Shown: one piece after another, positions 16,042-32,193 of the stretch
Numbering within the stretch: position 1 is the stretch's first letter
How the letters are laid out: each line of letters begins with the position of its first letter
Assembly (NCBI GenBank): GCA_030550555.1
Contig: JAUQPD010000044.1
Coordinates: 1 to 45,977, forward strand
Source of the DNA: Thermodesulfobacteriota bacterium
Lineage (GTDB): Bacteria > Desulfobacterota > Thermodesulfobacteria > Thermodesulfobacteriales > Thermodesulfobacteriaceae
Direction of reading: 5' to 3'
Length of the DNA: 45,977 nt
The notes under the pieces: model-generated
The model's input: only the letters and a program-made list of their open reading frames with translations
Database searches by the model: none
Told to the model about the DNA's origin: nothing
Made by a program: the position numbers and the translations under genes

Positions 16042-16057
16042 AGACTTGTCAGAGACT

Positions 16058-17059
16058 ATGAAGATCACCGTAGTTGGAGCTGGATCCTGGGGAACTGCTC
16101 TTGGAAAGGTTCTTGCAGAAAAAGGACTCGATGTTTGGCTTCTTGCTAGAAGAGAAGAGGTAGTTAAATGTATAAATGAAGAAAATGAAAATCCTTTCTA
16201 TCTTGCTGGAATTAAACTTCCAAGGAATCTCCGGGCAACCTTAGATCCCTCCGAAGCTTTTAATCGCTCTTTGCTTGTTATATGGACCATTCCATCCTAC
16301 GCTTTAAGAGAAAATCTAAGCAGATTGAAAGAGGAGTTGAAGGATATCTCTCATCATCTTTCGGGAATTAAAGGTATTGATCTTGAGACTGGCAAAGGGC
16401 CTTTAGATATTTTGAGGGAGACTTTGGGTCACGAAAAGAATTACTATGTTCTTGGAGGACCTTCCTTTGCTGTAGAGGTAGCGAAGAGACTTCCCACTGC
16501 GGTAGTCATAGCAGGTTTTGATCAAGACAATACAAAGCAAATACAGGAACTTATTGCCTGGAAATATTTCAGAGTCTATAGATCTTATGACCCAGTAGGA
16601 GTTGAGCTTGCTGGAGCCTTAAAGAATATCATAGCCATAGCGACAGGAATTTGTGATGGTCTGGGGCTCGGACTTAATGCCAGAGCAGGGCTAATTTCGA
16701 GGGGACTTACGGAGATGGTCCGTTGTGGTGTGAGGCTTGGAGGAAAGAAGGATACTTTTTATGGACTTGCTGGACTTGGTGATCTTGTGCTGACCTGCAC
16801 TGGTACCCTTTCAAGAAACTATCAAGTAGGTTTCAAGCTTGCACAAGGAAAAACCTTAAATGAGGCACTTTCAGAGGTAAAACAAGTTGCTGAGGGTGTT
16901 AAAACTGTCCTAACAATAAAAAAACTTTCAGAACAGGAAGGCCTTGATTTGCCGATCTGCAATCAAGTATACGAAATACTATACTGTGGTGAAAAACCAG
17001 AAAACTCCATAGAAAAGATCCTCAGTAGAACCCTTAAAGAGGAATTCGAAAACCTCTGA
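16058..17059 (+). CDS. gpsA: NAD(P)-dependent glycerol-3-phosphate dehydrogenase GpsA
   Basis: The enzyme reduces dihydroxyacetone phosphate to sn-glycerol 3-phosphate for phospholipid synthesis. It opens with the Rossmann motif MKITVVGAGSWGTALGKVLA, then LGGPSFAVEVAKRLPTAVVI near 138 and the catalytic Lys region GVELAGALKNIIAIATGICD near 185. Toward the C-terminus GLAGLGDLVLTCTGTLSRNY is diagnostic. The ATG at 16058 is chosen over an in-frame TTG at 16046, because that TTG would lie on or before the predicted transcription start. The product has 333 residues. The gene stands alone, divergent from the pilZ-motAB operon. Confidence 0.96.
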   Translation: MKITVVGAGSWGTALGKVLAEKGLDVWLLARREEVVKCINEENENPFYLAGIKLPRNLRATLDPSEAFNRSLLVIWTIPSYALRENLSRLKEELKDISHHLSGIKGIDLETGKGPLDILRETLGHEKNYYVLGGPSFAVEVAKRLPTAVVIAGFDQDNTKQIQELIAWKYFRVYRSYDPVGVELAGALKNIIAIATGICDGLGLGLNARAGLISRGLTEMVRCGVRLGGKKDTFYGLAGLGDLVLTCTGTLSRNYQVGFKLAQGKTLNEALSEVKQVAEGVKTVLTIKKLSEQEGLDLPICNQVYEILYCGEKPENSIEKILSRTLKEEFENL

Positions 17060-17100
17060 AAATGAGAAGGGGGCTTCAATTAAAACAGTAGAGTTTGACA

Positions 17101-17128
17101 TTGATTAAAGAAAATATCTGATTACAAT
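17101..17128 (+). promoter_or_regulatory. Candidate promoter of the DsrE-like gene
   Basis: TTGATT (17101-17106) and TACAAT (17123-17128) are 16 bases apart. A TTGACA at 17095-17100 and a TATAAT at 17134-17139 are also present but badly spaced relative to each other. The gap clearly holds promoter-like elements, but which pair is used is uncertain. Confidence 0.35.
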
Positions 17129-17164
17129 TAAAATATAATATACTTTTATTTGGGGGAGGGGGAT

Positions 17165-17506
17165 ATGAAAAAATGGAAACTTCTTATTCATGTTCCAGAT
17201 CCTATGAGATTTGAGGCAGGGCTCAAAATGGCGAGGAATTTTGTGCTTGCCCTTCAGGGAAAGACCTGTGAAGTTAGAATTATTGTTAATTACGAAGGAG
17301 TTAAAGTTTTAAAGGAATTTTCGAACTACGAGAATCTCTTTCAAGAGGCAAGAAATCTGGGAATAGAAATCTTCTTCTGCGAAACCGCTCTAAGGACTTT
17401 GGGATTCCCTATCACTGAGCTCCCTGAAGGTGCTAAAACCGTCCCCTCAGGAATTGTAGCTCTCGTTGATTGGCAACACAACGGATTCCAATACGTAAGA
17501 GCCTAA
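17165..17506 (+). CDS. DsrE/DsrF-like small protein
   Basis: This is a 113-residue protein with the DsrE-like fold pattern: a beta strand start KLLIHVPDPMRFEAGLKMAR, a strand VRIIVNYEGVKVL, then IFFCETALRTLGF with one conserved Cys, and the C-terminal TVPSGIVALVDWQHNGFQYV (family: vpaGvaelxrlQxxGyxYi). Family members carry sulfur as a persulfide or act in sulfur-relay and dissimilatory sulfur metabolism; the substrate here is unknown. ATG 17165 follows an unusually purine-rich GGGGGAGGGGGA ribosome site; an in-frame TTG at 17150 lies within that site and is rejected. It lies just before the nitrite reductase, but a 234-base gap separates them. Confidence 0.75.
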   Translation: MKKWKLLIHVPDPMRFEAGLKMARNFVLALQGKTCEVRIIVNYEGVKVLKEFSNYENLFQEARNLGIEIFFCETALRTLGFPITELPEGAKTVPSGIVALVDWQHNGFQYVRA

Positions 17507-17637
17507 TAGTAAGTTAGAGAATAAGTTCAAAATCTCTCGTCTCTCACAGTCTTTTTGGTTCACCAATAGTCTAAGAAAATTTTATTATTTTTCTAAATAA
17601 TCTTTGTTAGTATTTATTTCTTTAATTAAAATGCTGA

Positions 17638-17659
17638 AATTAACAGAAAATTAACAGAA
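17638..17659 (+). repeat. Tandem 11-bp repeat AATTAACAGAA x2, candidate OmpR/PhoB-type operator
   Basis: Two perfect copies of AATTAACAGAA lie head to tail 82 bases upstream of the octaheme nitrite reductase ATG. Read as TTAACAG-AAAA-TTAACAG this has the 7+4+7 layout of PhoB-family direct-repeat sites. A PhoB-like regulator is encoded at 26796-27485. Binding is inference. Confidence 0.5.
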
Positions 17660-17740
17660 ATTTGTCTACTCTTTTCACCTCTATTCCACAATAATTGATT
17701 AAGAAAAGATTATTAGAAAAAAACTAATAGGAGGTGGCCT

Positions 17741-19429
17741 ATGGGAAGAGGAAATTTCAAGAAAAAATTGCCACTCATTCTGCCGATAGCTGTCTTGGGT
17801 ACTGGTTTTGTTCTCACAGGGATTACTGGAAAGGTTGAGGCTAGGAAGGGACAGGTTCATGAATGGGAGCTTGTGGACAAGGAGACCTGTTTTGCTTGTC
17901 ATGGAGAAATAAAGGCCTTCAAGACAAGAGGAAAGCATCAGAATCTAAATTGTGGTGTCTGTCATTCTGAATTGGAGGCCCATCTTGGGAATCCTGTAAG
18001 GGTGAAGGCAAAAACTAAGATTGACCATGCGGTCTGTGGTCAGTGTCACAAAGATCAGTATGAGTCCTTTATTTCCTCTTACTACAAGAAGAATGTTTTA
18101 CAAGAGAAGTCAACACCTCAGGGAAGATCTCCTATTTTATTTGATAACATTATGAGGCCTCACGGCTTCACAAGAGAACATGCAGAACCAAGAAGCCATG
18201 TTTTTGCCTTGGTAGACCATCTTCGTGTAGATCGTGCTTATGGTGGAAGATTCAGGCCTATCACCTGGTATGCCCTCTTTGACGAGAAATTAGCTGCAAA
18301 AAGTGCCTGGGAGATACTTTATGACAAGGATCCAAAATCAAATGAACAGAAGATCTTTCCACCTTTCACTCCGAGGACCGCAGCGACTGCTGCTAATCCA
18401 GTCTGTCTCCATTGTAAGACTTCTGATCTTGTCCTTAAGTGGGCCTACATGGGTGACAAAAATCCAAAGGCTAAATGGGACAGAACTTCACCTGTTGTTG
18501 ATGTAGCAAGAGATACGAAACTCGGTTTTTCCTGCATACAGTGTCACGATCCGCATAGCACAGAGCCCAGAGTTATTCGAGATGCCCTTATAGAGGCGGT
18601 AGTTGATCGTAAAATGGGAACCTATCCCTATGATCCGGAGAAGAGCAGTAGAATAACTATGCAGAAGGTGACCTTCAGAGATTTCAGAGCAATTGGTATT
18701 CTTAACAAGCCTGATGCGGTTCTGATGTGTGCTCAATGCCACGTAGAATACAACTGCAATCCTGGTATAGACACCAAAACTGGTCAGCCCGTTACTATGG
18801 CTGACAGAAGAACCAACTGGTTCCCATGGGTAAATGTCTTTGATGCTCTTAAAGCCTTTGACTCCATTAATTTCAGAGACTTTAGACATGAAGTTACAGG
18901 AGCTCTCCTGCCCAAGATTCAACACCCCGAAGTCGAAGTCTTCTGGGGAAGCAAACATGAAAGAGCAGGACTCACCTGTGCTGACTGCCACATGCCTAAA
19001 GTCAAAGGTAAGGATGGAAAGGTTTACACTTTCCACGGTGCCAGAAGTCCCAGGTATTTGCCTGGAGGTTTCCAGGTCTGCACAAGGTGCCATACTGGAT
19101 GGACACCAGAAGATGCTCAAAACGTTGTCGATGGAATTAAGAACTATGTCCGTGGTAAAATGAGAAAGGCAGAATTTTGGATATCAAAACTTATTGATAC
19201 CTATCAACTTGCTCAGGCGGTTGGAGTTTCTGAAGATGTGTTGAAGAGAGCAAGAGATCTCCATGCTCAGGCTCATGTATACTGGGAGTGGTGGACAGCT
19301 GAAAACTCCGATGGATTCCATAATCCAGATCAAGCTATTGCCTCCCTCAATAAAGCTATTCAACTAGCAATTGATGGTGTAACCCAGTTAGAAAAGGCTA
19401 TTAGAGAGCGTCAGACCGCAAAGAAGTAA
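17741..19429 (+). CDS. Octaheme cytochrome c nitrite reductase (ammonia-forming, TvNiR/ONR type)
   Basis: This periplasmic enzyme takes nitrite to ammonium in a six-electron step; members of the family can also use hydroxylamine and sulfite. After a signal peptide (basic MGRGNFKKK, hydrophobic core, about 1-35) come eight heme motifs: CxxCH at residues 50, 71, 99, 265, 330, 413 and 447, and CLHCK at 222-226. The Lys-ligated heme 4 is the catalytic heme in both NrfA and octaheme nitrite reductases. Three hemes before it make this the octaheme type, not pentaheme NrfA. CAQCHVEYNC gives the catalytic Tyr337 and a Cys339 two residues on, as in the Tyr-Cys cross-linked TvNiR active site. QHPEVEVFWGSKHERAG precedes heme 7, as in NrfA. 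The length (562) fits. AGGAGGTGG precedes the ATG. Confidence 0.93.
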   Translation: MGRGNFKKKLPLILPIAVLGTGFVLTGITGKVEARKGQVHEWELVDKETCFACHGEIKAFKTRGKHQNLNCGVCHSELEAHLGNPVRVKAKTKIDHAVCGQCHKDQYESFISSYYKKNVLQEKSTPQGRSPILFDNIMRPHGFTREHAEPRSHVFALVDHLRVDRAYGGRFRPITWYALFDEKLAAKSAWEILYDKDPKSNEQKIFPPFTPRTAATAANPVCLHCKTSDLVLKWAYMGDKNPKAKWDRTSPVVDVARDTKLGFSCIQCHDPHSTEPRVIRDALIEAVVDRKMGTYPYDPEKSSRITMQKVTFRDFRAIGILNKPDAVLMCAQCHVEYNCNPGIDTKTGQPVTMADRRTNWFPWVNVFDALKAFDSINFRDFRHEVTGALLPKIQHPEVEVFWGSKHERAGLTCADCHMPKVKGKDGKVYTFHGARSPRYLPGGFQVCTRCHTGWTPEDAQNVVDGIKNYVRGKMRKAEFWISKLIDTYQLAQAVGVSEDVLKRARDLHAQAHVYWEWWTAENSDGFHNPDQAIASLNKAIQLAIDGVTQLEKAIRERQTAKK

Positions 19430-19436
19430 AATAAAC

Positions 19437-19464
19437 TTAGGGGGCGGTCTCGTCCGCCCCCTAA
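19437..19464. terminator. Bidirectional hairpin terminator between convergent cytochrome genes
   Basis: A perfect 11-base-pair stem (TTAGGGGGCGG / CCGCCCCCTAA) with a TCTCGT loop lies 8 bases after the nitrite reductase stop, before the convergent cytochrome gene. Flanking A/T-rich sequence on both sides suits termination in either direction. Confidence 0.85.
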
Positions 19465-19522
19465 ATATATCTTCTCTTCTTGCTCTACTAAGAAATTTTT
19501 AGACAGTATGTCGTTGATTCAG

Positions 19523-20485
19523 TTACTGCTGATGACAGCTCTGACAGTTGAAGTTTGCTGATTTCTTTTCACCATGGCAAACGAAGCAAGCCACATCTTT
19601 TGAGTGATCTGCAAAGCTGATAGTAGTAGTTCCTGCTTTCATTTTGAAGAGGCCAGGATGACAAGTCTGACATTCAAAGATTTGACTGTGTAATTGATGA
19701 GAAAATTTGGCAGGATAACCTGCCTTTGCAATGTTAATATCACTCATTTTGATTTTGTCTCTATTTTCCATATGGCATTTAAAACACATATTTTCTCCTT
19801 CATTAATACTCTTAGAAACGAGTTTTATTTCTTCGCCACTATGAACTACACCTCTATGGCAAATCACACAGTTTATTCCCGCTTTTATATGAATACTATG
19901 TTTGGGATTTACTTCGTAATTATCCTTTACCTGATCACTCATTATATCAATCATATTTTTTACTTTTAGATACTCTGGATTTTTAATTTTATCAAGGGTT
20001 CTAAAGCTAAGCCCTGCAAGTGTAATTACTCTCTCTTTTCTGAATTTTTCATTATATTCAGTGCTATGACAAAATAGACAGCTGTCCATAGAATATACTT
20101 TCGCCTGTAAAGTGGGATCTTTGTGGATCTGATCTAGTTTTTGAATCATATGATCTTTACCCCTGAACACAAAGCTGTAAACATCGCCAAGGCCCTTTAT
20201 CTTTGCCTTAAGGTATGAAAAAATTCCTGGTCCCGAGTGACAATCAAGACAGCTGATATTATGTTTTGCATGGATATTGAGACTCCAGGTGTGGACTTCA
20301 CCTAGAGGACCTGGGGTTTTTGCATTGTGACATCTGGCACAAAACTGGGGCTTACTCGTGTAATGCATTGCTTGAACGTTCAAAAAAACAAAACCCGCAA
20401 CAATCCCAGTTCCGATGGCTAGACTAAGGAGTGGCCTTTCTCGAAGAAACTTAAAAGTTGCTGAACTCTTGCCTTTCTTTTCCAT
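19523..20485 (-). CDS. Membrane-anchored octaheme cytochrome: NapC/NirT-like N-terminus plus tetraheme C-terminus
   Basis: This is probably a quinol dehydrogenase feeding electrons to periplasmic reductases. The 320 residues have one N-terminal membrane helix (about 17-37) followed by eight CxxCH motifs at 49, 79, 136, 206, 234, 272, 300 and 314. The first four, with HAKHNISCLDCHSGPG and IHIKAGINCVICHRG, look like a NapC/NrfH tetraheme module. The last four are tightly packed (FSHQLHSQIFECQTCHPGLF, DVACFVCHG, NCQSCHQQ) and resemble class III/c7 repeats. Such a two-module arrangement is larger than NrfH or NapC (about 150-200 residues). It is convergent with the nitrite reductase and divergent from the nap genes. 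GGAGGGGGGC is its ribosome site. Confidence 0.82.
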   Translation of the reverse strand: MEKKGKSSATFKFLRERPLLSLAIGTGIVAGFVFLNVQAMHYTSKPQFCARCHNAKTPGPLGEVHTWSLNIHAKHNISCLDCHSGPGIFSYLKAKIKGLGDVYSFVFRGKDHMIQKLDQIHKDPTLQAKVYSMDSCLFCHSTEYNEKFRKERVITLAGLSFRTLDKIKNPEYLKVKNMIDIMSDQVKDNYEVNPKHSIHIKAGINCVICHRGVVHSGEEIKLVSKSINEGENMCFKCHMENRDKIKMSDINIAKAGYPAKFSHQLHSQIFECQTCHPGLFKMKAGTTTISFADHSKDVACFVCHGEKKSANFNCQSCHQQ

Positions 20486-20655
20486 AGCCCCCCTCCGTCA
20501 ATATTGAGATTACTTTTGTTACTATTTAATTTGGAGCTCTTAATGGCTAATTTATTTCAACCCTTAGGCATTGCAAGATACTTAAAATGTTAATTTCGTA
20601 TTAAATTCGAGCCCTAGGCCTTAAGTTCAAATAGGCTTACATTTTTAATGAAAAA

Positions 20656-20671
20656 TTAACTAAAAATTAAT
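20656..20671 (+). repeat. 11-bp-phased TTAAC/TTAAT pair, second candidate operator
   Basis: TTAAC (20656-20660) and TTAAT (20667-20671) repeat with an exact 11-base period, immediately upstream of a -35-like hexamer for the nap-side genes. A further pair TTAAT/TTAAA, also 11 bases apart, starts at 20590 and 20601. The region is very AT-rich, so chance similarity is possible. Confidence 0.35.
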
Positions 20672-20682
20672 TCATTGTTGCC

Positions 20683-20710
20683 TTTACTTCTTTTACCGAT
20701 TCTCTAAAAT
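20683..20710 (+). promoter_or_regulatory. Candidate promoter for the monoheme/NapA genes
   Basis: TTTACT (20683-20688) and TAAAAT (20705-20710) have a 16-base spacer and lie about 37 bases before the ATG at 20747. The weak -35 next to phased repeats would suit activator-dependent transcription (inference). Confidence 0.45.
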
Positions 20711-20746
20711 CCCTTTAATGAAGAAAAAACAGTAGGAGGTTTGGAC

Positions 20747-20998
20747 ATGAGACGTCATTTTGTATTCCTTGTTATCTTAGGTTTACTTATTATGACAGGT
20801 GAGGGGTATGCGGTTGAGAGTTGTTTGAAATGTCATGGAACTAAGGAGAAACTCAGTGGACTTATTAAAAAGGCACCTGCCAAAACTGGAGATGAGCTTG
20901 TAACTTTTCTGCGGACGAAATCTCCCAAGAAGGCTCTTCACAACGGAGTTACGGATGACCAGATACGTCAAGCCTTTTCTGAATTGGGCAAGAAATAA
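20747..20998 (+). CDS. Small periplasmic monoheme c-type cytochrome
   Basis: The 83-residue product begins with a signal peptide (MRRHFVFLVILGLLIMTGEG, cleavage near YA-V) and has one heme motif, CLKCH at residues 26-30. The rest is a short helical domain with ELVTFLRTKSPKKALHNGVT and DDQIRQAFSELGK. A His in ALHNGV could be the second axial ligand, since no Met follows the heme motif. I do not recognise a named family. AGGAGGT at 20734-20740 points to ATG 20747 rather than the in-frame TTG at 20741. First in the operon leading to NapA, it may replace the missing NapB as electron donor (inference). Confidence 0.75.
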   Translation: MRRHFVFLVILGLLIMTGEGYAVESCLKCHGTKEKLSGLIKKAPAKTGDELVTFLRTKSPKKALHNGVTDDQIRQAFSELGKK

Positions 20999-21015
20999 AC
21001 ATTTGGGGGTTTGTA

Positions 21016-21522
21016 ATGAGAAAAATAGTTTTTTTGGCAGGACTGTCAGTTGCTAGTTTTCTCTTTTCTGTAGCATTAAAGAAGGATGTAAGTGCTCATA
21101 GAAATAGTGCTATGGGGCTCGAATGTGCGAGCTGTCATATTGAGGGGCCTCAGGCAAAATTGGTTATCAGGGGAGTTCCTGCCCAATTTCAACCTGGTAA
21201 GACCTATGAAGTTACCGTAGAGGTAATCTCCAAACTTCGCAGTAAAAGTGATTCTAGAGGAGGCTTTGCGGTTCAAGCGAGTGCAGGAGAATTGAAGGTA
21301 AAAGATACTAAGAGAACCCAACTTATAAATGGATATATAACCCACACCATCGAAGGAAATAGTGTGCGCAAGTGGAGTTTTCTCTGGACTGCTCCTAAAG
21401 ACGTAGAAGAAGTGACAATTATGGCCATGGGGGTGGCTTCTGATGGGGATTATTCTCCCTACGGAGATGCTGTTGCGGTCGAAGCGGTTACCACCGTTAG
21501 AGCTAAACCTAAAAAGAAATAA
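21016..21522 (+). CDS. Reeler-like domain protein with one heme c motif
   Basis: The 168-residue exported protein has a signal peptide (about 1-27, ending VSA), then GLECASCHIEG with one CxxCH at 37-41. A beta-sandwich-like domain follows: FQPGKTYEVTVEVISKLR, SRGGFAVQASAGELKV, YITHTIEGNS, VRKWSFLWTAPKDVEEVTIM and a DGDYSPYGD segment near the end. This pattern resembles the Reeler-type domain found in some bacterial surface and cytochrome-associated proteins. It ends in a lysine-rich tail (RAKPKKK). It sits 17 bases after the monoheme gene and 26 bases before napA, so the three are very likely one transcript. Its role in nitrate reduction is unknown: electron transfer or docking are both possible. 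Confidence 0.65.
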   Translation: MRKIVFLAGLSVASFLFSVALKKDVSAHRNSAMGLECASCHIEGPQAKLVIRGVPAQFQPGKTYEVTVEVISKLRSKSDSRGGFAVQASAGELKVKDTKRTQLINGYITHTIEGNSVRKWSFLWTAPKDVEEVTIMAMGVASDGDYSPYGDAVAVEAVTTVRAKPKKK

Positions 21523-21548
21523 ACCCAGCAAAGCTGGAGGTGATTGTC

Positions 21549-24500
21549 ATGGACATGAACAGAAGAGACTTTTTGAAAATGAGTGCAATTTTGTCTGCAA
21601 CTATTGCTGCGGGATTTGCCAAACCTGAGGAGATCTTTTCAGCTAATGTAAAGACTTTTCCTGCTGGTCCCTGCAGATACTGTGCTATTGGATGCACAAT
21701 GCTTGCTGAATGTGAAGTGGATGCCAAGGGAAATCCTGTGAAAATACTGGCAATAAAGGGAGATCCTAAGAGTCCAGTAAATAGAGGGGTGCTCTGTACA
21801 AAGGGATTTTACCTACATCATGCCTTGGGCTACAAGGATAGACCAAGTGGAGCACTTATTCGTAAGGAGTGGATTAATCCTGCAACTGGAAAACCAGATC
21901 TTGAAAATTCTCCCAGAGTAAGAGAAGGAAAGACTACAAAGGATCCAAGGGCGTTAAAACCGTCAGAGCAGGACTTAAAAGAAAATTTTGTGGCTATTCC
22001 ATGGGAAGAAGCTATAGAGTTTATTGTCAAGGCCTGTATAAAGGCCTATCGGGAACATGGAAAGCATAGTATTGCATACTATGGAAGCGGTCAGGCAGGA
22101 ACTGAGGAATCCCACCTTATGAATATTCTTTTCAAAGCAGGCTTTCAGAATAACGCTATTGAGGGTCAACCTCGAACCTGTATGGTATCTGCTGTCGTTG
22201 GATACCTCTACACTGTGGGTAAGGATGAACCCTGGGGTTGCCTTGATGACATTGATGTTCCAGATCCTGATTTCAAGAAACATGCAGATACCTTCTTTTT
22301 GATTGGATCTAATACCGCTGAAGCTCACCCAATAATTTTTAATCGAATTGCAGCGTTAAAGGCTAAAAATCCGAATGTCAAGGTGATTCTTGCAGATCCG
22401 AGGAAGACAAGATCAGGTACCATTGCGGACCTCTGGTTACCCATCTCATCAGGAAGAGATTTGCTACTACTCAATTCAATGGCCTATGTAATTGCCTTTG
22501 AATTAGATAATGCAAAGTATGATGTTGAAAAAGGCACTGTAACCGCAAATTGGAAATATCTCGATAAAAAATTTATTGAAAGGCATGTATCATTTGGTAT
22601 CCACAAGGACGTGAAGAAAGTCTGGGTTAAGACCAATTATGGTGGAGTTAGAGGGGAGGCCTGGGATATTTCATATACCGCTCCTCCGCTTCCTGGACAC
22701 TCCTCTGTGGTCTATCCTGATCCCAAGAAGAAATATGCCTCCGAAGAGGAGATTAGGAAAGACCTTTATAAGGGATTTGCTCTTTTCTTGCGTTTTCTTG
22801 AGGATTACAAGCCAGAATTGATAAGTGATGCCCTCTTTGAGGGAGAAAGCCCTCTTATTTATGATCAAAAGACTAAGACTTGGAAAAAGATTTCCGGACC
22901 AGAAGCCATAAGGCTTGCTGCTAAATGGTTTGCCGAGGGATATACTGTTACTTGTTGGACAATGGGAGTTAATCAGAAGGTGCAGGGAACATGGGTTAAC
23001 GCCTCTCTTCATATGCTTCATTTTATTACAGGGAAGGCAGGAAAACCCGGTAGACTCTCCTTCAGTTTTACAGGCCAACCCAACGCCTGTGGTGGAATTA
23101 GAGCTCCTGGTGCGCTTTGTCACGCCCTCCCATACGGAAGAGTAGTGACAAATCCTGTGCATCGGGCTGAGATTGAAGCAATCTGGAGAAGAGGGGTTGA
23201 AAGTTATCTCAGAAAGAAAGGCCTAAGCGAGGCAGAGGCAAAGAGAGAAGCTGAGAAAATTAAGATCCATCCACTGCCAGGTCCCCATATGGTTGAAATG
23301 TTCAGACGACTCGGCTCGGGACAGATAAAAATCCTTTTTAATTCTACAGTAAACCCCGGTCAAAGTAATCCCTATGCCTGGGTCTCTAGACAGGCGATGG
23401 GGCAGGCAATTAAGGGAACACCCTGGCCTCTTGTTATAACTTTTGAGTCATTTCCATCTGCAACAACTCAAGTTTCCGACATCGTTCTCTCTGCATCCTC
23501 TTGGAGTGAAAAGGAATATCTATATGGTAATCTTGAGAGAAGATACCAACTTATAAAACATTTAATTCCTCCACACAAGGACTCTATTCCAGACCACACT
23601 CTCACTGCGATTATTGCACGCAGGTTGGAAGAAGAGGGAATTGTTCCTAAGGGTTTGGTATCGAGATTTTGGCCTGAAGAATTTGATGGTCAAGATTGGT
23701 TAAAAAAGACTCTAACAGCCTGTAAAACAAAAGATTGGAATACAAAATTCACCGCAAAGGTTTGGGATGATATTCTTCAATGTGTCCGTGGAACTGCCTA
23801 TGACTTCACTGGTATGAGAAGGTCTCTCCTTCATGAGAGGAACTGGGGATTTCGTCAACCTATGCCTGAGGATTACCATACTAACCCCGACGTCAGAAAA
23901 CGTTATGAAAAGTATGAATCCAGAATTCAGTATGCCTACCCTTATGATCCAATGGTTGAAAAGAGATTTGAAACTGCTGTTGCCAATCTTAAGAAGTGGA
24001 ATCCCGTGTATGGAAGTTGGATCGAGAAACAGATAAGAGAAGAGATGAAAGATAGTGATTATCATCATAAGGAGAGTCTCCCTGCTGGATGGTTTCTTTT
24101 CTTCTACTCTTCTAATGCCTGGCTCCACGGGATGGTGGATGATCCTACAAGACCAGGAGCCAAACTTCCCGTGATTGACGGTAGAGCAATAGCTTGGGCT
24201 AATCCATGGTGGGCTTGCAAACTAGAAGGAAACAAATTTGTAAAGTACAGGACCGTCGAGATAATAGAAAGAGTATTTAATCCCAAAAAGGTGGATGAAA
24301 ATAGTGCCTTACCTTTTGATATCAGAGCAAGGTACACGGTAAATGTTCCTGGAGATCCTGATAAAGATCTCAATGCCCTTAAGCTTATTGCCCTCAGCCC
24401 TGCAGAGTTTCCAGGCCTGAGATGTGCCTATCGCAGAGCAGATGGAACAGAAATCGTGATCTATGATACTAGAGAATTTCCTTACGGTGCCTGCACGGGA

Positions 24501-24884
24501 AGAGTTCTTGAACACTGGCATACTGCCACAATGACTGGAAGGGTTCCACAGCTTGCAAGAGCAGTTCCTGGAGCATATGTAGAGATAAATGAAGAGCTTG
24601 CAAGAAAGCTACGTGTGAAAACTGGAGATATCGTGGTCGTTGAGAGTCGAAGAGGGAAGATAGAACTCCCAGTTAAGGTGCTTAATGTCACCCAGGCAAC
24701 AGGAGGTCCAAGAAAAGACTACATTTTTATCCCCTGGTTTGACGAACTCAAGCTAATCAATATGATCATGCCAGATTTCTTTGATCCCTTTAGTTTCCAA
24801 CCTGACTACAAATTATTTGCGGTTAAGATCTACAAAGGAAGAACGAAGACCAGACAAGCAGAGCCAGGACGGGTTGTAGCCTAA
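21549..24884 (+). CDS. napA: NapA-like periplasmic molybdopterin nitrate reductase, oversized
   Basis: This is the catalytic subunit reducing nitrate to nitrite with a Mo-bis-MGD cofactor. A Tat signal (NRRDFLKM, residues 4-11) leads into 4Fe-4S ligands C42, C45, C49 and C83, with the conserved Lys85 after the last. The Mo-ligand Cys211 sits in GQPRTCMVSAVVGYL, followed by DEPWGCLDDID and FLIGSNTAEAHPIIFNRI, all NapA-like. The C-terminal domain has VLEHWHTATMTGRVPQLARA and FIPWFDELKLINMI, again NapA-type. At 1111 residues it is about 280 longer than usual NapA, with extra blocks roughly around 100-150, 330-450 and 760-930. ATG 21549 has GGAGGT seven bases upstream; GTG 21540 is too close to it. 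No napB is adjacent. A relative with another substrate cannot be excluded. Confidence 0.87.
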   Translation: MDMNRRDFLKMSAILSATIAAGFAKPEEIFSANVKTFPAGPCRYCAIGCTMLAECEVDAKGNPVKILAIKGDPKSPVNRGVLCTKGFYLHHALGYKDRPSGALIRKEWINPATGKPDLENSPRVREGKTTKDPRALKPSEQDLKENFVAIPWEEAIEFIVKACIKAYREHGKHSIAYYGSGQAGTEESHLMNILFKAGFQNNAIEGQPRTCMVSAVVGYLYTVGKDEPWGCLDDIDVPDPDFKKHADTFFLIGSNTAEAHPIIFNRIAALKAKNPNVKVILADPRKTRSGTIADLWLPISSGRDLLLLNSMAYVIAFELDNAKYDVEKGTVTANWKYLDKKFIERHVSFGIHKDVKKVWVKTNYGGVRGEAWDISYTAPPLPGHSSVVYPDPKKKYASEEEIRKDLYKGFALFLRFLEDYKPELISDALFEGESPLIYDQKTKTWKKISGPEAIRLAAKWFAEGYTVTCWTMGVNQKVQGTWVNASLHMLHFITGKAGKPGRLSFSFTGQPNACGGIRAPGALCHALPYGRVVTNPVHRAEIEAIWRRGVESYLRKKGLSEAEAKREAEKIKIHPLPGPHMVEMFRRLGSGQIKILFNSTVNPGQSNPYAWVSRQAMGQAIKGTPWPLVITFESFPSATTQVSDIVLSASSWSEKEYLYGNLERRYQLIKHLIPPHKDSIPDHTLTAIIARRLEEEGIVPKGLVSRFWPEEFDGQDWLKKTLTACKTKDWNTKFTAKVWDDILQCVRGTAYDFTGMRRSLLHERNWGFRQPMPEDYHTNPDVRKRYEKYESRIQYAYPYDPMVEKRFETAVANLKKWNPVYGSWIEKQIREEMKDSDYHHKESLPAGWFLFFYSSNAWLHGMVDDPTRPGAKLPVIDGRAIAWANPWWACKLEGNKFVKYRTVEIIERVFNPKKVDENSALPFDIRARYTVNVPGDPDKDLNALKLIALSPAEFPGLRCAYRRADGTEIVIYDTREFPYGACTGRVLEHWHTATMTGRVPQLARAVPGAYVEINEELARKLRVKTGDIVVVESRRGKIELPVKVLNVTQATGGPRKDYIFIPWFDELKLINMIMPDFFDPFSFQPDYKLFAVKIYKGRTKTRQAEPGRVVA

Positions 24885-24905
24885 TTTAGTTCATGAAAAT
24901 CTAGA

Positions 24906-24928
24906 GGGGGGCCTAAGCCCCCCTTTTT
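24906..24928 (+). terminator. Intrinsic terminator between napA and napG
   Basis: GGGGGGC (24906-24912), loop CTAA, GCCCCCC (24917-24923) and then TTTTT form a textbook Rho-independent terminator 22 bases after the napA stop. The following napG starts 24 bases later, so napGHD need read-through, processing or their own promoter. Confidence 0.85.
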
Positions 24929-24951
24929 AAATCATTGAAGATTCTTAACCT

Positions 24952-25713
24952 ATGGATAGAAGAGATTTTCTAAAAATTTTGGGTTTCGGCGCCTTAGTTG
25001 TTGGATTTTCAAAGATGTTGCCCCAATTAAGTTATAGTCTAGCTCTGAGAAAGAGTGAGAATTTTGAACCACCTATTCCTCATATCCCTATTGGAGGGAT
25101 CATCAGACCACCAGGAGCTCTACCAGAGAAGGAGTTTCGTGCTAAGTGCATAAGTTGTGGTGTATGTGTCAATATATGTCATGTAATGAAGTATGATGCA
25201 ATAGCGGTTTGGGGATTGGGAAGTCTGAGAGATTTTGGGACCCCTTACATTAAAGATATGCGAGATTTTCCCTGTGGGCTTTGTATGGAGTGTCCTAAAC
25301 ATTGTCCTACCGGTGCCTTAAAAGAGGTCCCTAAGGAGAAGGTCTCCATGGGGCAAGCCTTGATAGACTTCAGTCTCTGTTTCGGCTGGAATGGTGATGT
25401 GTGTCTTAGCTGTAGTAAGGCCTGTCCATTGGGTGCCTTTGTTTTTGAATTTTATAATAGTGAATGGGGAAATCAGCCGTATATAAATGATAATTGTGTT
25501 GGATGTGGACTTTGTGTAAAATATTGTCCACTTGGTGGTTCAGCTGTTAAAGTTATAACAAAAAAAACATATGAAAAAGTAAAGGAAGAATACATTAATG
25601 AGTTTCAAAAACTGTTAAAAATGAATATGGAAGAAAGATATTTACTTGTATATAATGAAAATTTGCCTAAGATTCTTTCTCGTGGGAGAATCGTAGAAAG
25701 AGAGTATAGATGA
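24952..25713 (+). CDS. napG: NapG-type ferredoxin subunit
   Basis: NapG passes electrons from NapH-bound quinol toward the periplasmic nitrate reductase. A Tat-type start (MDRRDFLKILGFGALVVGF) is followed by four cysteine clusters for 4Fe-4S centres: KCISCGVCVNICHV, FPCGLCMECPKHCP, a wide one with CFGWNGDVCLSCSKACP, and NCVGCGLCVKYCPLGG. The 253 residues are normal for NapG. The C-terminal 60 residues are lysine-rich and coded by AT-rich sequence. The gene follows a terminator and has only a weak ribosome site. Its stop overlaps the napH start (ATGA). Confidence 0.88.
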   Translation: MDRRDFLKILGFGALVVGFSKMLPQLSYSLALRKSENFEPPIPHIPIGGIIRPPGALPEKEFRAKCISCGVCVNICHVMKYDAIAVWGLGSLRDFGTPYIKDMRDFPCGLCMECPKHCPTGALKEVPKEKVSMGQALIDFSLCFGWNGDVCLSCSKACPLGAFVFEFYNSEWGNQPYINDNCVGCGLCVKYCPLGGSAVKVITKKTYEKVKEEYINEFQKLLKMNMEERYLLVYNENLPKILSRGRIVEREYR

Positions 25714-26537
25714 AGGTGAGAGAAATTGCTAAAAATTATGAATTCATAAGAAGAATTGTAATGTTTAGTGTATTATTTTTATTATTACTTCAATTTATTC
25801 GTTCTAAAATTCTTGTAGGCAGTCTGACAGGGTCTCTTCTTTTTTCCTGGTTGACCTTACTTGATCCCTTTGCCTTTTTAGAAATCCAGCTTGCATCAAG
25901 AAGTATAGATTTAAACGCTATAAACTCAGTATTACCTGTCATTGGTATATATTTAATCTTTGGGAGGGCATTCTGTGGTTGGATATGTCCTATGGATTTT
26001 CTCTTTCGACTTATTAATAAGATCAAATTTTCGTTGAAATTTTCTTTATCTCATAAAATACCTTCAAATATAGGCTATTTATTCTTTTTTATCTTTTTAT
26101 TTTCTTCATTTATGTTTGGAATTCCAATTTTTACTAATTATCTATCTCATTTAACAAACTTATTTAGAGGAATAACTGGGCTTTATTTTTTAATATTCGA
26201 TATGCCTGTTGAATTTTCAACTGTTTTATATTCTATTCTTTTTATCTTAGTGTTATTAATGCTAGAATTTTTCTTTCCTAATCTTTGGTGTAGAATAATC
26301 TGTCCAATTGGTAGACTTTATGGATCATTGAATAAAATTAGTTTATTACATCTTAGATTTGATAGAGATAAGTGTTTAAACTGTCAGGTATGTAATAAAA
26401 GTTGTTATATGGGTATTGAAATTATGAATCAAATCAATCAAGGAAAACTTAGGAGTATTGATTGTATATTTTGTGGAAGATGCATCCAAAAGTGTAGCCA
26501 AAAAGGAAATGTAATTAATTTTAAATTAGGAGTCTAA
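25710..26537 (+). CDS. napH: NapH-type membrane quinol dehydrogenase
   Basis: NapH is an inner-membrane 4Fe-4S protein that oxidises quinol together with NapG. The 275 residues have four membrane helices (about 15-35, 72-92, 115-140, 168-190). The conserved motifs GRAFCGWICPMD near 88 and CRIICPIGRLYGSLN near 197 hold the cysteine pairs CxxxCP between membrane segments. Two C-terminal ferredoxin-like clusters follow, CLNCQVCNKSC and CIFCGRCIQKC. It is translationally coupled to napG by a 4-base overlap and ends one base before napD. Very AT-rich coding sequence. Confidence 0.88.
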   Translation: MKVREIAKNYEFIRRIVMFSVLFLLLLQFIRSKILVGSLTGSLLFSWLTLLDPFAFLEIQLASRSIDLNAINSVLPVIGIYLIFGRAFCGWICPMDFLFRLINKIKFSLKFSLSHKIPSNIGYLFFFIFLFSSFMFGIPIFTNYLSHLTNLFRGITGLYFLIFDMPVEFSTVLYSILFILVLLMLEFFFPNLWCRIICPIGRLYGSLNKISLLHLRFDRDKCLNCQVCNKSCYMGIEIMNQINQGKLRSIDCIFCGRCIQKCSQKGNVINFKLGV

Positions 26538-26538
26538 A

Positions 26539-26766
26539 ATGCCTATTGCAAGCGGATTCATAGTAGTGCTTAATGACGAAGAAATAGATAGAATTAAAAA
26601 TGAATTAATTGTTAATAATGTTGAAATAATAAGAGCAGAAGATAAGAAAATAGTTTACCTAATTGAAAGACCAACTATGCAAGAAATTGAACATGTTTTG
26701 AAATTTATGAAATCAATTGATGGCATTGAAAACGTCTACTTAGCCTACTATACGCTTTCTGATTGA
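26539..26766 (+). CDS. napD: NapD-type chaperone for NapA maturation
   Basis: NapD binds the Tat signal of NapA in the cytoplasm and delays export until the cofactor is inserted. At 75 residues it is a small ferredoxin-fold protein: IASGFIVVLNDEEIDRIKNE, KIVYLIERPTMQEIEHVLKF, and ending DGIENVYLAYYTLSD, matching the family pattern in which the last strand reads GVxxxxLVY. AGGAG at 26527-26531 precedes the ATG. Last gene of the nap run, it supports the Tat-dependent NapA assignment. It is convergent with the response regulator, which ends 29 bases away. Confidence 0.83.
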   Translation: MPIASGFIVVLNDEEIDRIKNELIVNNVEIIRAEDKKIVYLIERPTMQEIEHVLKFMKSIDGIENVYLAYYTLSD

Positions 26767-26770
26767 TTCA

Positions 26771-26804
26771 AAATTAGATCATTCTCTAAATTAGATCATT
26801 CTCT
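26771..26804. repeat. Tandem 17-bp duplication at the 3' end of the response regulator gene
   Basis: AAATTAGATCATTCTCT occurs twice in direct succession (26771-26787, 26788-26804). The second copy includes the stop codon and last codons of the response regulator read on the minus strand; the first is downstream of it. Probably a slippage duplication. Either copy can fold into a weak A/T stem. Confidence 0.7.
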
Positions 26805-27485
26805 AAATTTATATCCATACCCATGGACTGTGATAATGTAGGTGGGATTGTTTGGATCGTCTTCTAATTTTTCTCTAAGATTCTTTATGTGAACATCAAG
26901 GACTCTACTCCAGTTATATATCTTCTTTTCCATCCAAATAGCTTTTTTAATTTCCTCCCTGCTAAAGGCCCGTCCCGGTTCTGAGACAAGGAGATTGAGT
27001 ATCTTCCATTCCATAGGAGTGAGGTGGATTTCACTATCTCCTTTGAGAATTTTTCTACCTTTTGGATCTATCTTTAGTTCACCTATTTGAATGAGATCCC
27101 TTTTGGGTTTTTGAAAGAGCTCTGTTTTCCTAAGAAGGGCCTTACAGCGTGCAACAAGTTCAAGAGGCTCAAAGGGTTTGGCTAAATAGTCATCCGCTCC
27201 TAATTCAAAGCCAAGAACCTTGTCAGAAACTGAGCTCTTTGCAGTAAGAAGAATTACGGGTAGAGTTGAATAGGTTTTTTTGAGTTCTTTTAACCATTCA
27301 AGTCCACTTTTGTCAGGAAGCATTATGTCCAGAATAATCAGATCAGGAGCCTCTGTAAGAAACATCTTCTGGGCAGAGGTTATGTCTTGTGCTTGTACTG
27401 TTTCAAAACCCTCAATCTGAAGAAAGGAAGAGACTATAGTTAAAATATCTGGATCATCATCGACAATAAGAATTTTTTTCTTCAT
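26796..27485 (-). CDS. OmpR/PhoB-family response regulator
   Basis: This is the transcriptional output of a two-component system. The receiver domain (1-120) has acidic DDDPDIL at 9-15, phospho-acceptor Asp53 in LIILDIMLPD, a Thr in LLTAKSS near 80-86 and the Lys in LAKPFEPLELVARCK near 104. The C-terminal winged helix (130-229) has HLTPMEWKILNLLVSEPGRA, WSRVLDVHIKNLREKL and TVHGYGYKFRE, typical of the Trans_reg_C DNA-binding domain. Such regulators bind tandem 11-base repeats. It is encoded nine bases downstream of its kinase, on the strand opposite the nap genes, and probably controls the cytochrome and nap promoters (inference). Confidence 0.93.
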   Translation of the reverse strand: MKKKILIVDDDPDILTIVSSFLQIEGFETVQAQDITSAQKMFLTEAPDLIILDIMLPDKSGLEWLKELKKTYSTLPVILLTAKSSVSDKVLGFELGADDYLAKPFEPLELVARCKALLRKTELFQKPKRDLIQIGELKIDPKGRKILKGDSEIHLTPMEWKILNLLVSEPGRAFSREEIKKAIWMEKKIYNWSRVLDVHIKNLREKLEDDPNNPTYIITVHGYGYKFRE

Positions 27486-27494
27486 CTCTGCTTA

Positions 27495-29147
27495 TTATAC
27501 TAATTTTTCAGGAATTTCAAAATAGAAACAAGCTCCTTGCTCTGTATTAAAAGCACCTATTTTTCCTTTATGAGCCTCTACATAAGCTTTTGCAATTGTA
27601 AGCCCTAGACCAAAACCATTAGAACGTCCCTTGTAAAACTTCTCAAAAAGGAGATTGGGATCCACTTTTATACCATCACCCTGATCTTCGATCTCAAAAC
27701 GAACCATCTTATCCTTCCTGGAAACCCTAATTGAAATAACACCCCTTTGTGGTGAATGGTGAATAGCATTTGAGATAAGATTTGATAGGATTATGTATAA
27801 TTTTTCAATATCTGCATCCAATTCTATATTATCATCTACACTAATTTTAAATGTAATTTCTTTAGGTTCACTTAACCCTTTTAGTGAATGCACAATATCT
27901 TCAAGAAGAGCTTTTACGTTAATTCTTTTGTATTCCAATTCAAGAAGATCGGCCTCATGTTTTTCTAAATCTACTAAAAAATTAAATAAATTGATTAATC
28001 TGATAATATTTTTTTGAGATATTTCTATAAATTCTTTTAATTTTTCTCTGTCTTTTTCTTGTAGATTTCCGCTATTTTTAATTATAAAATAATGATGAAG
28101 AAAATCAATACTCCCCTTTATTGATGTTAGAGGTGTTTTTATTTCATGGGCCATATTTGATATCAAAAATTTTTTATTTTCTAATAACTTTTGAAGTTGT
28201 TCAGTTTTTTTCTTTAATTCTTCTTTAGCTTCTTTGATTTTAATTTCTATTTGCTCTTGGTAAAAATTTATTTCTTTGAGGAATTGATTTATGCTTTCAA
28301 AAAGAAGAGCCCATTCATTCTTGAAAAAAGGCTCTTTTTTGTCTGATTTAGCCTCTTGAAGGGGATTATAAAGATGCTTTAGAGTTCTCAATAATTTTAT
28401 AATACAATATAGTGGATTAAAAATAAACTTATTTGTTATGGATAGAATCATTATATTAAGAGATAGCCAAAAAATCGTAAAAATTAATATTATAAGTATC
28501 TTATAATTGACAATCTTTTTATAAGTTTCATCAAAAGGGATGAATATACTAATTGCACCTCTTATATCACCTTCTTTGTAGCCCTGTTTGCCATGACATC
28601 TTAAACAAGAGGCTTCAGTGTAGAGGGGTCTAATATATCTATAAAAATATCTGTTGTTAACTTTTGTGATCTTTGTGAACTCTTCTAAGCTTTGATCTTT
28701 TTCAAAGGACTTAAGGGCTACTTCTTCTAATGCATCAGGTTTATTATAGGGATTTATATATTTAAGGCTTGTAATCTTAAACCAATAAAGATTATTTTCT
28801 CTTGCTAGATCAGAGAGCTGTCTAGTAACAAGGGCAGGATTCTGTTTTATCAAAATAGTGTGATCTGCTGTGATAATCTTTGTCCTCTCACCAATTTGTA
28901 GTAGATAGGGATTTTCTTCTACCCAAGGTAACTTTTCAACAAAGATGCCTCCATGATCAGCAATCCATTTTCTCGTGAGAATAATCTGGTGGTAAATCGT
29001 TAGAGCTTGATTCCTAACTTGTTCTATAAAGATTTTTTCCAAATACCTAAAGGAGACCCAAAAAGGCACTAGAAGGAATAAAATGAGAAGTAGGTTTAAG
29101 TAGATTAGAAATCGTCTTGTGACTTTAAGTCTGAGGCTATGAAGCAT
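27495..29147 (-). CDS. Heme-c sensor histidine kinase (DUF3365/Tll0287-like periplasmic domain)
   Basis: This membrane sensor kinase has a hydrophobic segment at about 15-36, a periplasmic domain to about residue 205, a second membrane segment at 210-235, a coiled-coil region, then HisKA and HATPase. The periplasmic part carries CLRCHGKQGYKEGDIRGAIS with a CxxCH heme c motif at 181-185, the mark of the Tll0287-like heme-binding PAS domain. The phospho-accepting His334 is in NMAHEIKTPLTSIKG. ATP-binding boxes are LSNLISNAIHHSP, EIEDQGDGI and GFGLGLTIAKAYVEAHKG. The ATG at 29147 is used. An in-frame TTG at 29162 would add five residues; neither has a clear ribosome site. It may sense redox state, NO or nitrite via heme (inference). 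Confidence 0.9.
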   Translation of the reverse strand: MLHSLRLKVTRRFLIYLNLLLILFLLVPFWVSFRYLEKIFIEQVRNQALTIYHQIILTRKWIADHGGIFVEKLPWVEENPYLLQIGERTKIITADHTILIKQNPALVTRQLSDLARENNLYWFKITSLKYINPYNKPDALEEVALKSFEKDQSLEEFTKITKVNNRYFYRYIRPLYTEASCLRCHGKQGYKEGDIRGAISIFIPFDETYKKIVNYKILIILIFTIFWLSLNIMILSITNKFIFNPLYCIIKLLRTLKHLYNPLQEAKSDKKEPFFKNEWALLFESINQFLKEINFYQEQIEIKIKEAKEELKKKTEQLQKLLENKKFLISNMAHEIKTPLTSIKGSIDFLHHYFIIKNSGNLQEKDREKLKEFIEISQKNIIRLINLFNFLVDLEKHEADLLELEYKRINVKALLEDIVHSLKGLSEPKEITFKISVDDNIELDADIEKLYIILSNLISNAIHHSPQRGVISIRVSRKDKMVRFEIEDQGDGIKVDPNLLFEKFYKGRSNGFGLGLTIAKAYVEAHKGKIGAFNTEQGACFYFEIPEKLV

Positions 29148-29168
29148 TTTAGAGGCATTCAAAACAAG

Positions 29169-29195
29169 TTGATTAATTATTTAATTATAAATCAA
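29169..29195. promoter_or_regulatory. 27-bp imperfect palindrome upstream of the sensor kinase
   Basis: The sequence begins TTGATT and ends AATCAA with largely matching inner arms. It lies directly upstream of the kinase start and contains a minus-strand TATAAT (plus positions 29184-29189). It may be an operator or part of the promoter. The arms are AT-rich, so this is tentative. Confidence 0.35.
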
Positions 29196-30399: not shown

Positions 30400-32193
30400 C
30401 TATAGTATAATCCATTCGCAAACTTTACCAAGTCCTCTAACACTGTTACCAATGAATAGTTCCCCTTTTCTGAGATCCTCAAGTGTTATAACCCCTTCTT
30501 CCGCTTCTCTTCTTCTTAATAGCTTTTCCCTTAGAACCCCTGGAAGAAGACCGAGCTCAAGGGGTGGAGTTATGAAAGTTGAGCCAATTCTAAGGAAGAT
30601 GTTAGAAATTGTTCCCTCAAGTAGGTTCCCCTTTTCATCACAGAGTATGATCTCTGTCAGTTTAAGCTTGTCTGCCTCTTTCCGGAGGTTCTCATATTCT
30701 TCTCTTACAGTTGTTTTGTGAGAGTGAAAGATATTTTTTGGGGTTTTTCGTGTTAAAATTCCAACTCTTATGGGCTCTCTCCAGGAGGGTTCTTCAAGTT
30801 TTGAGTGGATTATCTCTATGTTTCCTGAGGGATCGAGGAGGAGCTTTACTCTATAACGCACACCTATCGTGAGTCCTGTAAGATGTTCTTCAAGATAGAT
30901 CCTAAATTTCTTGAAAGTTCTGAGCTCATCTGGGATTTTAAAGAGAAAATAGCGAGCAGAATTGATGAGTCTGCGATAGTGATATACGAGGAGGTTATTA
31001 ATTTTCCCCCGCTCCCACCAGAAGGTCTCGAAAAGTTTAAAGAAAGGTAGAGGATCTGAGAGGAATTTTGCCTTAAGAAGGGTCTCTTCATATTCATTTT
31101 CAGGAGAACTGTCCCAGACAATTCCAGCACCTATTCCAAGTTCTCCCTCGAAGGTGGTTTCACCTAGTCTCCTCAAGAAAAGTGTTCTGATTGCCACATT
31201 AAACAAGAAATCTCCGTTTGGGAGTATGTATCCAATTGCCCCTGTATAAATATTTCTTGGCTCTGGCTCAAGTTCTCTGATTATTTCCATTGTCCTTATT
31301 TTGGGTGCTCCTGTTACAGATCCACATGGAAATAGACTTCGCAGAATTTCAAAGAAATTAACCTCTTCAAGCCTCCCTTCAATAGTTGAAATCATCTGAT
31401 GTAAAGTGGGATAAGTCTTTATCTTAAATAGCTCTCGCACATACACAGTTCCTTTTTGGCAAATTCTTCCGAGATCATTTCTGATTAGGTCAACTATCAT
31501 GATATTTTCAGCAGTCGTTTTTTCATTTTTTTTAAGGTCTTCCCTGACCCTTTTGTCTTCTGCATAAAGAAATCCTCTCTTAAGGGTGCCTTTCATCGGA
31601 GAAGAGAACAGAAAATATCCCCTTTTTCTCAAAAAAAGTTCAGGAGAAAGAGAGAGAATTACAAAATCGTCTTCTTCAAGATAGAAGGCATATTCACACC
31701 TCTGAGAAAAAAGAAGATTCTCAAATAGCTCATAAGGATCACCTTTAAAGTGAAATTTAATTTTTACTGTATAATTAACTTGATAGGTATGACCTCTTGC
31801 AATATAGTCCTTTATCTTATCTATTGCCTGAATATATTCTTGTTTAGATATATTTAATCCAAGAAAATTCAGTGTATACTTTGATTTCTGCTCTCGAGGG
31901 AATAGAATAGTTTCTTTTAAATTTTGAAATATAGCTACATAGAGAAGAGGTGAGACTGAAGGTCTATAATATGGTTTTAGTCGTTCCTCAAGAAGATAGC
32001 CTAACTCATAAGAGAAAAAGGAAAGAACATAATGACCTTCTTGAGTTTCTAAAAAAATTTTATTTAGGGTATTAATTATAGTATCAACTGAAGGTTGGAG
32101 ATTGTTTATTGAAATTACATCAAGACATTGTGTAAAATATTTTACTTTATAGGGTATATATTTAGCATCAACAAATAGAGCTTTTCGTATCAT
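30400..32193 (-). CDS. pabB: Fused aminodeoxychorismate synthase component I and 4-amino-4-deoxychorismate lyase (PabB-PabC)
   Basis: The fusion makes p-aminobenzoate for folate from chorismate. Residues 1-385 are the PabB part, with ISKQEYIQAIDKIKDYIARG, SSPMKGTLKRG (the PIKGT-type Lys), ENIMIVDLIRNDLGR and FPCGSVTGAPKIRTMEIIRE. Residues about 390-597 are a PabC aminotransferase-like lyase with HKTTVREEYENLR holding the probable PLP Lys, and LLEGTISNIFLRI. The fused layout is known in many bacteria. The glutamine amidotransferase PabA is not in the window. The gene overlaps the upstream TPR gene by four bases (ATGA), giving translational coupling. Confidence 0.9.
   Translation of the reverse strand: MIRKALFVDAKYIPYKVKYFTQCLDVISINNLQPSVDTIINTLNKIFLETQEGHYVLSFFSYELGYLLEERLKPYYRPSVSPLLYVAIFQNLKETILFPREQKSKYTLNFLGLNISKQEYIQAIDKIKDYIARGHTYQVNYTVKIKFHFKGDPYELFENLLFSQRCEYAFYLEEDDFVILSLSPELFLRKRGYFLFSSPMKGTLKRGFLYAEDKRVREDLKKNEKTTAENIMIVDLIRNDLGRICQKGTVYVRELFKIKTYPTLHQMISTIEGRLEEVNFFEILRSLFPCGSVTGAPKIRTMEIIRELEPEPRNIYTGAIGYILPNGDFLFNVAIRTLFLRRLGETTFEGELGIGAGIVWDSSPENEYEETLLKAKFLSDPLPFFKLFETFWWERGKINNLLVYHYRRLINSARYFLFKIPDELRTFKKFRIYLEEHLTGLTIGVRYRVKLLLDPSGNIEIIHSKLEEPSWREPIRVGILTRKTPKNIFHSHKTTVREEYENLRKEADKLKLTEIILCDEKGNLLEGTISNIFLRIGSTFITPPLELGLLPGVLREKLLRRREAEEGVITLEDLRKGELFIGNSVRGLGKVCEWIIL

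Follow-up and report, generated by a model that had tools for sequence, protein, structure and literature searches.

Can nitrate be respired to ammonium in the periplasm by a gene set that has neither NapB nor the nitrite reductase NrfA? The question is raised by the stretch of DNA analysed here (the window, 45,977 nucleotides), which is one whole contig (JAUQPD010000044.1) of a 1.7-Mb Thermodesulfobacteriota genome (GCA_030550555.1; 58 contigs, rated 100% complete), most likely that of a heat-loving Caldimicrobium species. At 17638–29195, the initial annotation had placed an octaheme nitrite reductase (ONR), an octaheme membrane cytochrome, two small monoheme proteins, NapA, NapG, NapH, NapD and a heme-sensing two-component system, and each of these genes was found between 17.6 and 29.2 kb as an intact open frame with the expected domains. 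Judged from sequence, the genes very probably encode a periplasmic respiratory module that would convert nitrate through nitrite to ammonium without NapB and NrfA, the presumed substrates and electron route being read from the genes. More tentatively, and with nearly as much credence as doubt, we propose that a monoheme cytochrome of the reeler fold, unrelated to NapB and NapM, serves as the dedicated electron-transfer subunit for long NapA proteins, which would form a class of their own spread over several bacterial phyla and perhaps archaea. In the same proposal, a heme-sensing kinase controls the entire operon, in which the nitrite-reductase slot is exchangeable, by way of an 11-bp repeat shared across phyla.

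No NapB scored over its cut-off anywhere in the genome, and the single sub-threshold match (E 0.066) lay inside the octaheme membrane cytochrome; the diheme partner of NapAB systems is thus lacking. The NrfA/ONR family PF02335 had the window ONR as its sole match genome-wide, leaving no NrfA. Nor does the island hold a four-heme protein, such as the tetraheme NapM that stands beside napA in systems of the NapMADGH type. As the rest of the genome holds neither napB nor nrfA, the nitrate-to-ammonium module proposed by the initial annotation remains the best reading. By layout the genes form four transcription units, namely ONR (+ strand), the octaheme membrane cytochrome (− strand), the nap unit (+ strand) and the kinase–regulator pair (− strand); within the nap unit, which runs mono85–reeler cytochrome–napA–napG–napH–napD, neighbouring genes are separated by 17, 17 and 67 bases, an overlap and 1 base. 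The genes are:

17741–19429, + strand: octaheme nitrite reductase (ONR), 562 amino acids, Sec-type signal; matches TvNiR and PF02335 (2e-56)
19523–20485, − strand: octaheme membrane-anchored cytochrome, 320 amino acids, with NapC/NirT N-terminal (PF03264, 2.5e-13) and c7-type C-terminal (PF14522, 8e-19) domains; variable part
20741–20998, + strand: small monoheme cytochrome (mono85), 85 amino acids, Sec-type signal, one CXXCH, no Pfam match; variable part
21016–21522, + strand: reeler-fold monoheme cytochrome (choice-of-anchor V family; NF041895, 1e-29), 168 amino acids; candidate NapA electron donor
21540–24884, + strand: long NapA-type molybdopterin nitrate reductase, 1114 amino acids, Tat-type signal, one 4Fe-4S cluster, Mo-ligand Cys214
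24952–25713, + strand: NapG-like periplasmic ferredoxin, Tat-type signal, 16 Cys
25710–26537, + strand: NapH-like membrane quinol dehydrogenase, two CX3CP and two 4Fe-4S motifs
26539–26766, + strand: NapD chaperone (PF03927, 30.9 bits against a cut-off of 28)
26796–27485, − strand: OmpR/PhoB-type response regulator
27495–29162, − strand: histidine kinase with Tll0287-like sensor domain (PF11845, 6.6e-24) and one CXXCH at residue 186 (predicted c-type heme)

The ONR carries heme motifs at residues 50, 71, 99, 222 (CXXCK), 265, 330, 413 and 447, in the order three CXXCH, one CXXCK and four CXXCH. It aligned end to end with the crystallised Thioalkalivibrio enzyme TvNiR (2zo5/2ot4; E about 4e-180), and the active-site residues of TvNiR were kept, with CHVEYNC (the Trp/Tyr-Cys motif) and QHPE (the His between sites 6 and 7) aligned. 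On this alignment the window ONR is an orthologue of TvNiR, and six-electron reduction of nitrite to ammonium is its predicted reaction. The long, NapB-independent NapA would reduce nitrate to nitrite, which the TvNiR-type ONR would then reduce to ammonium.

The best sequence match of the 1114-residue molybdoenzyme was the NapA of D. desulfuricans (478 bits), which was also its best fold match (Foldseek E 1e-41, TM 0.82 on target), and formate dehydrogenases ranked below NapA in both profile and fold matches. The Mo-ligand Cys214, the FeS cysteines 45/48/52/86 and Lys88 did not vary among 33 relatives, two of which were ordinary NapA. The canonical NapA equivalogs were missed (NF010055 and TIGR01706; 428 bits against a cut-off of 904, and 400 against 930.55), and the protein is about 190–390 residues longer than characterised NapA (PMC13223375). 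Because its best profile and fold matches are NapA and because the Mo and FeS cysteines and the relay lysine are kept, sequence and model identify the enzyme as NapA in the wide sense, a member of the Nap clade of molybdopterin enzymes, and not as canonical NapA. NapD would aid its maturation and export. NapGH is probably the main quinol dehydrogenase: NapH has the expected motifs, and NapG is a Tat-exported protein whose 16 Cys could hold four clusters. NapH would oxidise menaquinol and pass the electrons to NapG, from which they may reach the 4Fe-4S cluster in NapA by way of the reeler-fold monoheme cytochrome; either the same NapGH or the octaheme NapC/c7 membrane cytochrome might supply the ONR.

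Relatives of the long NapA (56–86% identity), drawn from 84,980 species genomes, came mostly from Nitrospirota, followed by Caldimicrobium, Desulfurivibrio, other Thermodesulfobacteriota, Kryptoniota, Ignavibacteriota and two archaeal bins. The order ONR–reeler cytochrome–NapA–NapG–NapH–NapD recurred in most of their loci, across phyla, which bears out the gene-order conservation by which the initial annotation was to be checked. A heme-bearing kinase and a regulator, both akin to the window pair, often stood beside the operon, and a nitrite reductase was linked to the long NapA in about three quarters of the loci. Where the CXXCK octaheme was missing, another cytochrome stood near the operon, namely two NrfA-type pentahemes in locus L056 and PF13447 multiheme proteins in L044, L047, L071 and L073, and the nitrite-reductase slot therefore appears exchangeable; that the PF13447 proteins reduce nitrite is our guess. 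A PpiC-type prolyl isomerase gene was often in the operon where a second ONR clade was present (L029, 11744–12643; L042, L043, L067 and L068). The two contigs binned as archaea carried long NapA, NapG, NapH and a reeler cytochrome with a C-terminal membrane helix (L063, L064), with an ONR in L063; these two may reflect gene transfer or binning errors.

We asked which protein could take the place of NapB. By tblastn, all 37 long-NapA loci had the reeler cytochrome at most 1 kb upstream of NapA; these loci span Nitrospirota, Thermodesulfobacteriota, Kryptoniota, Ignavibacteriota and the archaeal bins. It was absent from the short-NapA loci (L035–L037) of three sister genomes, G001, G003 and G006, and from two ordinary NapA loci. 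Among 60 relatives the family occurred only in the window genome, the genus's two other long-NapA genomes and the distant G058, and in relatives with complete genomes it was found almost only with long NapA. The AlphaFold model (pLDDT 90) had F-spondin reeler domains as its best PDB matches (E 5e-7, TM about 0.5). The CXXCH was invariant (34/34 sequences), and His110 (33/34) and Met138 (31/34) are candidate sixth heme ligands. The second small monoheme protein, mono85, was found beside NapA in none of the other loci compared. Thorup and colleagues called the electron donor of the NapB-less NapA in D. alkaliphilus unknown (PMC5516251). Because it stands upstream of the long NapA in 37/37 loci, the reeler cytochrome is the best candidate for this missing donor and may fill the role of NapB; such a partner makes the donor question directly testable with two small proteins. 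No link between a reeler protein and periplasmic nitrate reductase was found in the open-access literature searched.

With the same enzymes, electrons could instead pass from NapG to NapA without a carrier, a route proposed for D. desulfuricans; the reeler cytochrome would then act only in stabilising or anchoring NapA, or would serve the ONR. Direct transfer from NapGH to NapA has been put forward for NapB-less systems (PMC5317091, citing Marietou 2005); moreover, the reeler domain is a beta-sandwich, often a binding fold, and a predicted membrane helix ends the reeler cytochrome of the archaeal bins. However, a purely structural protein needs no heme, and the conservation of CXXCH and His110 speaks against such a role, while a donor serving the ONR alone would hardly be kept, as the reeler cytochrome is, in loci without an adjacent ONR (Desulfurivibrio, Kryptonium). 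We therefore consider this alternative possible but rather unlikely, and retain the reeler cytochrome as the candidate donor of NapA.

Aligning the upstream regions of five genomes of the window's genus brought to light an 11-bp direct repeat (AAATTWACnnnAAATTWAY), copies of which precede three of the four units:

17637–17655, + strand: putative regulator operator, AAATTAAC-aga-AAATTAAC, 11-bp period, starting 104 bases before the ONR start codon; exact match
20653–20671, + strand: putative operator before the mono85–nap unit, starting 88 bases before the start codon; exact match
20589–20607, − strand: weak operator copy with 2 mismatches, facing the octaheme membrane cytochrome gene

The two exact copies, one per catalytic unit, were the only ones in the window. 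In 45 loci (817 kb) we found 14 exact copies, 13 of them within about 200 bases upstream of an ONR or nap unit, and Markov simulations (n = 8) yielded zero. Half of the 14 came from Nitrospirota loci, whose sequences had played no part in defining the motif; of these 7, 6 stood upstream of an ONR or nap unit. In L068, other genes lie between napA and napG, and napG has a further copy in front of it, much as the split island of the window has one copy for each catalytic unit. A third exact copy in the genome (L107, 1501–1519; contig C36 of the window genome G000, 39093–39111), flanked by genes for a ResB-like cytochrome c maturation protein and a KaiC-like protein, is not claimed as an operator, as it was not kept in sister genomes.

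OmpR/PhoB-class regulators bind 11-bp direct repeats. The response regulator of the window is predicted, from the repeat and its class, to be probably the protein that binds here. Its partner kinase, in which the CXXCH and the Tll0287-like domain predict heme binding, is 54–64% identical within the genus and 32–48% identical to Nitrospirota copies. Repeats with at most 2 mismatches were commoner near the heme kinase pair (14/17 versus 4/12; Fisher p 0.018), an association that is only supportive, as related genomes are not independent. The heme-bearing kinase and the OmpR-type regulator would thus probably switch on the ONR, nap and, through the weak copy, octaheme units, in response to a signal presumably read by the heme sensor. 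Alternatively, the repeat could be a general promoter element or be bound by a different regulator, with the kinase pair acting on other targets. Four loci (L042, L053, L058, L079) indeed have the repeat and no kinase pair in the DNA examined, although some of these contigs are short. A general element is disfavoured because exact copies number only 2 in the window and 3 genome-wide; another regulator is disfavoured by the higher frequency of the repeat near the kinase pair and by the 11-bp period, which fits the OmpR/PhoB type. We regard this alternative as unlikely. An operator under the heme kinase would be a first candidate control circuit for ONR-based ammonification, a branch that is reported to have received little study compared with NrfA (PMC10716430). 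Neither such an operator with a heme kinase nor a universal reeler partner was found described in the literature searched.

Some points weigh against the nitrate-to-ammonium module as read here, with its reeler donor and heme-kinase switch. NapA, NapG and NapH all fall under the NCBIfam cut-offs for the canonical families; the AlphaFold model of NapA has pLDDT below 50 in the FeS domain (residues 1–87), which hides the docking face; eight to ten ONR loci have no good copy of the repeat; and the monoheme partner could be a maturation or anchoring protein. That the molybdoenzyme reduces another oxyanion and the ONR detoxifies nitrite or hydroxylamine, as the enzyme's unusual size and the missed equivalog cut-offs might suggest, is very improbable in view of the precedence of NapA over formate dehydrogenases in profile and fold matches, the induction of a close homologue by nitrate (PMC12142623) and the linked nitrite reductase in most loci.

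The island appears to be of mixed origin. Long NapA (E below 1e-150) was present in only 5 of about 395 genomes drawn from the window's phylum and is rare and patchy there. In a quick NapA tree with SH-aLRT support only, the window grouped with Caldimicrobium SKYB6 and then with two Nitrospirota (support 100). In the ONR tree it grouped with its own family (95/100), and the ONR of SKYB6 and SKYB93 grouped with Nitrospirota (100/100). In sisters G001, G003 and G006 the same kinase pair adjoins a different set, made up of ONR, tetraheme NapM and a short NapA. On these trees, the simplest account would be a mosaic in which Nitrospirota supplied the nap unit, while the ONR of its family and its own regulator were retained, or regained, by the window's lineage.

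We asked whether the octaheme membrane cytochrome (8 CXXCH) belongs to the module. Copies 55–56% identical were found elsewhere on the chromosomes of three sister genomes; the gene was present in G001, G003 and G006, and in G005 split over two frames, each time unlinked to nap. It was absent from G002 and G004, both of which have the same NapA as the window, and we rejected it as a core component. The claim that NapB, NapC and NrfA are all replaced by other cytochromes was accordingly too strong: NapB and NrfA are absent, but NapC is not wholly so, as the octaheme protein has a NapC/NirT domain; it lies outside the conserved module, with NapGH as the probable main quinol dehydrogenase. In sister loci L088, L089 and L091 the octaheme NapC/c7 gene stands beside genes for an NrfD-type membrane protein, a ferredoxin and a triheme cytochrome, which suggests that it belongs there to an unlinked respiratory complex.

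Coupling to sulfur metabolism had been suggested from the adjacent DsrE-like gene. This link was rejected: the gene travels with gpsA, beside which it also stands in sister G004, and occurs in none of the cross-phylum loci. The genome has dsrA, as expected for a sulfur-metabolising thermophile, and nothing in the island ties it to sulfur. In the window, gpsA and the DsrE-like gene are separate frames (16046–17506); in SKYB6 (G002; L029, 14648–16024) a single 458-amino-acid frame spans gpsA and roughly equals the two in combined length, through fusion or a frameshift error. On the other side of the island, a large anthranilate/aminodeoxychorismate synthase-like frame fused to an aminotransferase-like C-terminal part (30400–32193) is kept downstream in sister genomes.

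How does the island compare with known systems? Trichlorobacter ammonificans and T. lovleyi, as Sorokin (2023) reportedly described, have a periplasmic Nap beside ONR and a NapGH quinol dehydrogenase, and form ammonium from nitrate without NrfA. The window shares with this Nap–ONR module the adjacent nap and ONR genes and the lack of NrfA; it differs in that the Trichlorobacter module is described as NapAB, whereas the window has a long NapA and a reeler cytochrome, and no NapB. Clustering and coupling of Nap with ONR in Trichlorobacter have been published (PMC11972089), as have nitrate-induced NapAGHD without NapB together with an octaheme nitrite reductase in Desulfurivibrio (PMC5516251, PMC12142623), so that the distinct module suggested by the initial annotation is not supported as a new kind. 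In Desulfurivibrio AMeS2, a NapA 64% identical to that of the window (locus L065 in our set) and an ONR were both upregulated on nitrate (PMC12142623), and transcriptomics gave the same relation in D. alkaliphilus (PMC5516251). D. alkaliphilus and D. dismutans share with the window the long NapA clade (63–65% identity, full length), NapG, NapH, NapD, a reeler cytochrome immediately upstream, an ONR encoded in the genome and the lack of NapB; in contrast to the window, their ONR is encoded elsewhere, no heme kinase pair stands beside the operon and no octaheme NapC/c7 gene is in the cluster. NapM-type Nap without NapB is known from T. dismutans and C. abyssi (PMC4911364, PMC5317091). The napMADGH systems of Thermosulfurimonas dismutans and Dissulfuribacter (PMC4911364, PMC5276818) likewise belong to sulfur-disproportionating thermophiles of the same phylum and combine Nap without NapB and NapC with ammonium formation without NrfA, but they have a tetraheme NapM carrier and no TvNiR-type ONR in the cluster. 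TvNiR itself (2ot4, 2zo5; PMC5433712) resembles the window ONR as its orthologue and, as far as tested, is not in a Nap operon with the window's partners; an ONR sequence of Caldimicrobium thiodismutans was already listed in the same paper. In hot springs, groundwater and soda lakes, nitrate ammonifiers of this type would escape screens that rely on napB, nrfA or NCBIfam NapA cut-offs. We conclude that NapB-less NapAGHD with ONR is already known in kind, and that the universal reeler partner, the operator with its heme kinase and the mosaic make-up are what this locus adds.

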